A stretch of DNA of 24,979 nucleotides. Origin: a virus. Shown here piece after piece: positions 22,764 through 22,997 of the stretch. The translations under genes were made by a program, and so were the position numbers. The stretch covers positions 1-24,979 of IMG/VR virus record IMGVR_UViG_3300048839_001044; one strand, given 5' to 3'. Below the pieces are notes generated by a model. It made no database searches. It saw only the letters and a program-made list of their open reading frames with translations, and was not told where the DNA came from. Numbering within the stretch: the first letter of the stretch is position 1; each line of letters starts with the position of its first letter.

Positions 22764-22786
22764 TTTGTGACCAAAAATTGACCAAT
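22764..22786. promoter_or_regulatory. Left integrase arm-site pair
   Basis: TGACCAA occurs at 22768-22774 and 22779-22785, starting 11 bp apart. The first lies in the 13-mer TTTGTGACCAAAA (22764-22776), which recurs exactly at 22985-22997. They are interpreted as arm-type binding sites for the integrase N-terminal domain. Confidence 0.65.
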
Positions 22787-22877
22787 CCCGCATCAAAATC
22801 CGGCACAATCTGACCCGAGGGGACTCAAGTCAACGCGCCCGTGGTGTGTCCGCAACTCATTGAGCGCAATGGGGTAA

Positions 22878-22940
22878 TGGCGGAGAGGGTGGGATTCGAA
22901 CCCACGGTGGACTTGCGCCCACTCCGGTTTTCGAGACCGG
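22878..22940 (-). pseudogene. 3' half of tRNA-Ser(CGA), attP core
   Basis: Read on the minus strand from 22940: anticodon stem CCGGT, loop CTCGAAA with anticodon CGA, stem ACCGG, a long serine-type variable arm, T arm GTGGG-TTCGAAT-CCCAC, acceptor CCTCTCC, discriminator G and encoded CCA (ending 22878). The D arm and 5' acceptor strand are absent; sequence upstream of 22940 does not match a tRNA. It is the phage copy of the 3' end of a host tRNA-Ser gene, so integration would restore the gene. Confidence 0.9.
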
Positions 22941-22945
22941 GGAAA

Positions 22946-22973
22946 GCCGCGCATCCTCAGTAGGATGCGCGGC
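22946..22973 (-). terminator. Strong hairpin next to the attP core, probable leftward terminator
   Basis: The arms GCCGCGCATCCT (22946-22957) and AGGATGCGCGGC (22962-22973) form a perfect 12-bp stem with a 4-nt loop. On the minus strand it follows the HTH gene stop by about 25 nt and is followed by TTTCC, a short T run. It would stop leftward transcription before the tRNA core. Confidence 0.65.
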
Positions 22974-22977
22974 GCGG

Positions 22978-22997
22978 TGACCAATTTGTGACCAAAA
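22978..22997. promoter_or_regulatory. Right integrase arm-site pair
   Basis: TGACCAA occurs at 22978-22984 and 22989-22995, again starting 11 bp apart and in the same orientation as the left pair. The second lies within the repeated 13-mer TTTGTGACCAAAA, which touches the stop codon of the HTH gene. Confidence 0.65.

Follow-up and report, generated by a model that had tools for sequence, protein, structure and literature searches.

A probable tRNA-Ser attP with paired TGACCAA arm sites in a temperate tailed-phage contig, and the recurrence of its arm word beside diverse integrases

Results

Arm repeats, a tRNA core and an integrase gene at the right end of the window

The window analysed here is an entire IMG/VR record of 24,979 bases, in which the terminase, portal, protease and capsid, and tail genes and an M15 peptidase endolysin gene are followed, at the right end, by a putative attP and an integrase gene. 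The local order is a gene at 21831-22715, the attP element, an HTH gene (22998-23441) that ends at the right arm (22998), a 79-aa ORF (region 22998-23734) and the integrase gene (int). No match to the HTH protein was found in phage records. Genes 19536-20828 and 21831-22715 encode 430 and 294 residues, respectively.

Two pairs of TGACCAA bound the element. The left pair (22764-22785, plus strand) reads TTTGTGACCAAAA followed by AT and TGACCAA, with motif starts at 22768 and 22779, and the right pair (22978-22997, plus strand) reads TGACCAATTTGTGACCAAAA, with starts at 22978 and 22989, the starts being 11 bp apart on both sides. The 13-mer TTTGTGACCAAAA occupies 22764-22776 and recurs, in direct reading, at 22985-22997. 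On re-reading, these motif and 13-mer positions and spacings are exactly those of the original prediction, whose description of the pairs as mirrored holds for position (the 13-mer is outermost on each side) but not for orientation, the four sites being direct repeats, all on the plus strand. Elsewhere in the 25 kb, TGACCAA occurs in two copies only (11711 and 12011), for a total of 6 versus 1.69 expected, a count reached in 0 of 100 shuffles. When the whole window was scanned for any 7-mer present as two pairs (spacing 10-12 bp, pairs 100-350 bp apart), the TGACCAA element was the sole match, and 100 dinucleotide-preserving shuffles yielded none.

Between the arms lies a common core (22878-22940, minus strand) that corresponds to the 3′ half of a tRNA-Ser(CGA) gene, with the anticodon stem at one end and the encoded CCA at the other. 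This identity, as originally proposed, is upheld by an alignment across all 63 bp to an annotated tRNA-Ser-CGA (90.5% identity), and the likeness to the tRNA goes no further than the anticodon stem; ARAGORN called no tRNA at the core, because only the 3′ half is there. The terminal stretch CCGGT-TTTCGAG-ACCGG (22924-22940, minus strand) consists of the anticodon stem arms and the 7-bp anticodon loop (22929-22935). In tRNA-targeting tyrosine integrases the anticodon stem gives two core-type sites and the loop gives the overlap; by analogy with these, the stem arms are probably the inverted core-type sites here and the loop the 7-bp overlap. Neither the exact 63-bp core nor a 4-fold degenerate version of it had a match in the ~85,000 genomes of the genome collection or in viral contigs. 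Because the core matches no genome among these, no host was found and no attB, attL or attR was seen; the host genome is probably absent from the searched collection.

The integrase gene (23820-24884, minus strand, ATG at 24884) is an intact ORF encoding a 354-aa tyrosine integrase, with matches to Pfam PF00589 (E 1e-13, above cut-off) and to the PHROG integrase (E 1e-32). Its R200, H296, R299 and Y330, which form the R..HxxR..Y arrangement of lambda-type catalytic domains, are invariant across a 15-member alignment. In the predicted model (mean pLDDT 84), core-binding and catalytic domains follow an N-terminal domain modelled at pLDDT about 70-80, with strands at residues 8-12, 15-21 and 27-31 and a helix at 40-58. 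This domain has no Pfam arm-domain match and, by its fold of a three-strand sheet plus helix, is predicted to be arm-binding. Lambda integrase 1z1b was the best full-length structural match (Z 18.0, residues 7-339), with an rmsd of 8.1 over 306 residues that is high because the domains sit differently; for 1z19, without the arm domain, the rmsd was 3.3 over 261 residues. An interval of 822 bp, occupied by two small ORFs, separates the gene from the right arm, unlike in most relatives, where the integrase is within about 100 bp of the arm.

A relative keeps the arm sites around a different tRNA-Ser

A search of viral contigs with a pattern of two TGACCA pairs retrieved a 41.5-kb record, IMGVR_UViG_3300048838_001126 (G001, with its attP in stretch L267), whose proteins are 61% (integrase), 77% (portal), 83% (protease) and 73% (capsid) identical to those of the window, the capsid genes spanning 73-83%; genes left of attP are 80-87% identical. 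A peptide-pattern search for integrase relatives in viral contigs had returned no match, and it missed this record because near-exact 8-mers were required. The attP of G001 aligns to that of the window over 271 bases (22740-23010, 188/271 identical), with all four TGACCA(A) sites at corresponding places. The arm sites agree at 27/28 bases (left 14/14, right 13/14), a conservation that is partly by construction because the search pattern demanded TGACCA four times; identity is 65% outside arms and core, and 44/63 in the core, which in G001 belongs to a different serine tRNA (loop TTTCAAG, anticodon UGA, not CGA). Conservation of the pairs between relatives and use of tRNA-Ser had been named beforehand as a test, and G001 indeed has four arms around tRNA-Ser(UGA), the arm part of this agreement being biased by the retrieval pattern. 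Less affected by the TGACCA-based retrieval is the comparison of integrase domains, in which residues 1-60 are 80% identical versus 58% for the remainder (P 0.001), a difference in protein sequence that fits an arm specificity kept while the core changed.

Gene order in G001 (stretch L319, G001 26800-33000, positions 1412-2583) runs from the same gene as that at 21831-22715 through HTH gene, ORF and attP to int, which directly adjoins attP, unlike in the window; attP and the small HTH gene have swapped places, with the HTH gene on the other side of attP. The two HTH proteins share only a C-terminal part of 56 residues (46% identity), and the second small ORFs are unrelated. The 294-residue protein of gene 21831-22715 has no Pfam or PHROG match, although its G001 counterpart is about 80% identical.

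Further features lie within the alignable element. The block AATCTGACCC (22807-22816, plus strand), conserved in G001, includes TGACCC, a near-match to the arm motif, and is possibly an extra arm-type site; a 14-bp block, the CGCCCGTGGTGTGT region (22837-22850, plus strand), lies between left arm and core, is identical in G001 and may be an accessory-protein site. Both, as conserved blocks, are candidate accessory sites (IHF, excisionase) only. A perfect 12-bp inverted repeat with stem-loop potential (22946-22973, -25.1 kcal/mol, z -4.4) separates the core from the right arm; it is without a T run, and in G001 it is degenerate and loosely kept.

Two direct pairs one helical turn apart are a standard arm layout

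We compared the layout with 12 annotated phages carrying distant integrases and with 1535 control tiles. Two direct pairs of a 6-mer, the phage's own word, 11 bp apart (once 12), were found just 3′ of int in 8/12 phages, versus 9/1535 control tiles. The words were GTCCCCA in Lena, TGCCCC in A500 (around the annotated attP), AACTAGA in mv4, TACAACA in BK5-T, TTGTCCC in phiAT3, TTGAGGG in Juicebox, TTCTGT in JNU_P7 and GGTCAC (= GTGACC) in PVJ1. In mycobacteriophages L5, Giles, CrimD and cluster J, too, the core is flanked by two pairs of arm-type sites, the core being a tRNA-Leu cut at the anticodon loop in cluster J and tmRNA in CrimD (PMC3203893, PMC3706429). The window's four direct sites are arranged as in L5, Giles and cluster J, whereas the mycobacteriophages use other arm words and the right pair of CrimD is inverted (PMC3203893, PMC3706429). 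CrimD also has a reported stem-loop between core and right arm (PMC3203893), where the window has its 22946-22973 inverted repeat.

The cultured Psychrobacillus phage PVJ1 shares the arm word, with a pair of TGACCA sites at 11-bp spacing on either side just 3′ of int, but its integrase is only about 21% identical to that of the window and no tRNA-Ser core was seen in it. With lambda, the window shares a three-domain integrase (arm and core binding being predicted for the window's protein) and the structural match to 1z1b; it differs from the asymmetric five-site arm set of lambda attP, with its IHF, Xis and Fis sites and non-tRNA target, and the integrases are about 15% identical. Integrases of this class ordinarily have their arm sites in two direct pairs with 11-bp spacing, and the layout is not special. 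The original prediction had treated motif and layout as unusual, a view that finds no support here: the layout is standard (8/12 phages; PMC3203893, PMC3706429), and the word occurs in PVJ1 and about 40 IMG/VR contigs.

TGACCA recurs as an arm word beside very different integrases

With two gap ranges, the TGACCA double-pair pattern returned 24 and 18 stretches from viral contigs (41 contigs in all). A tyrosine integrase lay within 400 bp in 36/42 of these elements, window included; it was beyond 400 bp in the window (829 bp), L289 and L284, and L003, L273 and L300 had no integrase on the stretch examined. The integrases fall into about 20 clusters at 40% identity, the window being grouped with G001, and the GC content of the double-pair users ranges from 36 to 71%. 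Among 15 of these integrases, Pfam arm domains belong to at least two families, Arm-DNA-bind_3 and Arm-DNA-bind_4. A tRNA T-loop regular expression matched 12/42 elements and is too strict to serve as a count of tRNA cores.

As a control, the word AGTCCA was searched in the same layout and one gap range, giving 13 stretches: 11 of one near-identical family by integrase, one more by integrase and one repeat array without. Since AGTCCA elements also adjoin integrases, it is the layout that marks attP. Integrase-linked clusters in that gap range numbered about 12 for TGACCA versus 2 for AGTCCA; this excess rests on a single control word, so over-use of TGACCA as an arm word is likely, though unproven. 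A single pair (TGACCAA-N4-TGACCAA) had an integrase nearby in 9 loci versus 4 for an N5 control, of 120 loci, a non-significant difference (P 0.25), and only the double pair is informative for integrase association.

The AGTCCA family (L303-L309, L311-L313 and L315) comprises eleven mostly environmental phage contigs in which near-identical double pairs lie beside the 5′ part of a tyrosine integrase gene or overlap it; attP here sits upstream of int and has another arm word. In L003 (1087-1346), an AT-rich viral contig, about eight non-coding copies of TTGACCAA have no integrase on the 2.3 kb analysed and could represent iterons or an atypical attP. In the literature covered, outside which lie most subscription papers (e.g., the mv4 and L5 biochemistry), TGACCAA or TTGGTCA beside attP proved to be primers where matches were examined; TGACCA with arm-type returned unrelated papers only, and GTGACCA with integrase and prophage returned no evident arm-site paper by title.

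Discussion

The core is a tRNA 3′ end that stops at the anticodon stem, arm-type repeats stand on both sides of it, and the adjoining gene encodes a lambda-type integrase with a predicted arm-binding domain. With the four sites also present in a relative, the original reading of the locus as an attP with both arms stands, and we consider it very probable that the locus holds a temperate tailed phage's complete attP, worked by the integrase encoded at 23820-24884; the site is probably in working order. In the mechanism that we infer, the N-terminal domain of the integrase would occupy the four TGACCAA sites, each arm taking up two neighbouring molecules spaced by one helical turn and perhaps bound cooperatively, and the catalytic domains would rest on the anticodon-stem repeats within the core. 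Strand exchange would then take place across the 7-bp anticodon loop with the tRNA-Ser(CGA) gene of a presumed host, and the phage-borne 3′ half would rebuild the host tRNA. The further claim that the DNA is not an integrated end holds with a small caveat: the presence of both arms speaks against a plain prophage end, yet where two prophages lie in tandem in a double lysogen, the junction between them is also a full attP.

If the TGACCAA pairs were operators of a regulator (the HTH protein of 22998-23441 or a host factor) and the tRNA half a separate att core, the HTH gene ending at the right arm, with a homologue close to attP in G001, would be accommodated, and a shared non-integrase binder could explain the same word beside integrases of more than one arm-domain family. 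The pairs nevertheless flank the core symmetrically in all relatives, and other integrases have the same layout with other words, as expected if each reads its own arms. TGACCA users, moreover, span GC 36-71% and unrelated phages, which makes a common regulator or host factor unlikely, and in G001 the HTH gene sits on the other side of attP. We regard operator pairs as distinctly improbable.

Scarcely credible, in our view, is a non-working attP in which chance repeats surround a tRNA fragment that has decayed or been captured. Such an element appeared in 0/100 shuffles, the integrase ORF is intact, and in a relative whose integrase is 61% identical the element persists around a core from another tRNA-Ser; these observations stand against the integrase lying 822 bp away and the host gene not being found in the genome collection, which would suit a defunct site.

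Taken alone, the complete attP favoured here is one more tRNA attP, and the original prediction was right about the object while over-rating its oddity. What is new, from sequence comparison, is the recurrence of TGACCA double pairs in 41 other viral contigs, with about 20 very different integrase clusters. Searching raw contigs for two direct-repeat pairs at 11-bp spacing is a powerful way to find attP sites, given that 36/42 TGACCA matches adjoin an integrase and that even the control word picked out integrase-adjacent elements. One arm word is common to about 20 integrase clusters, and therefore DNA reading by arm domains and the recurrence of the word are directly testable; phages in culture such as PVJ1 are suited to testing why TGACCA recurs. 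We tentatively suggest, at somewhat less than even confidence, that TGACCA is a preferred arm word, kept or independently reached by many unrelated integrases of different arm-domain families, invariably in direct pairs spaced by one helical turn. If true, this would suggest that arm-binding domains share a rule for reading DNA, and attP sites could be found by a simple sequence signature.
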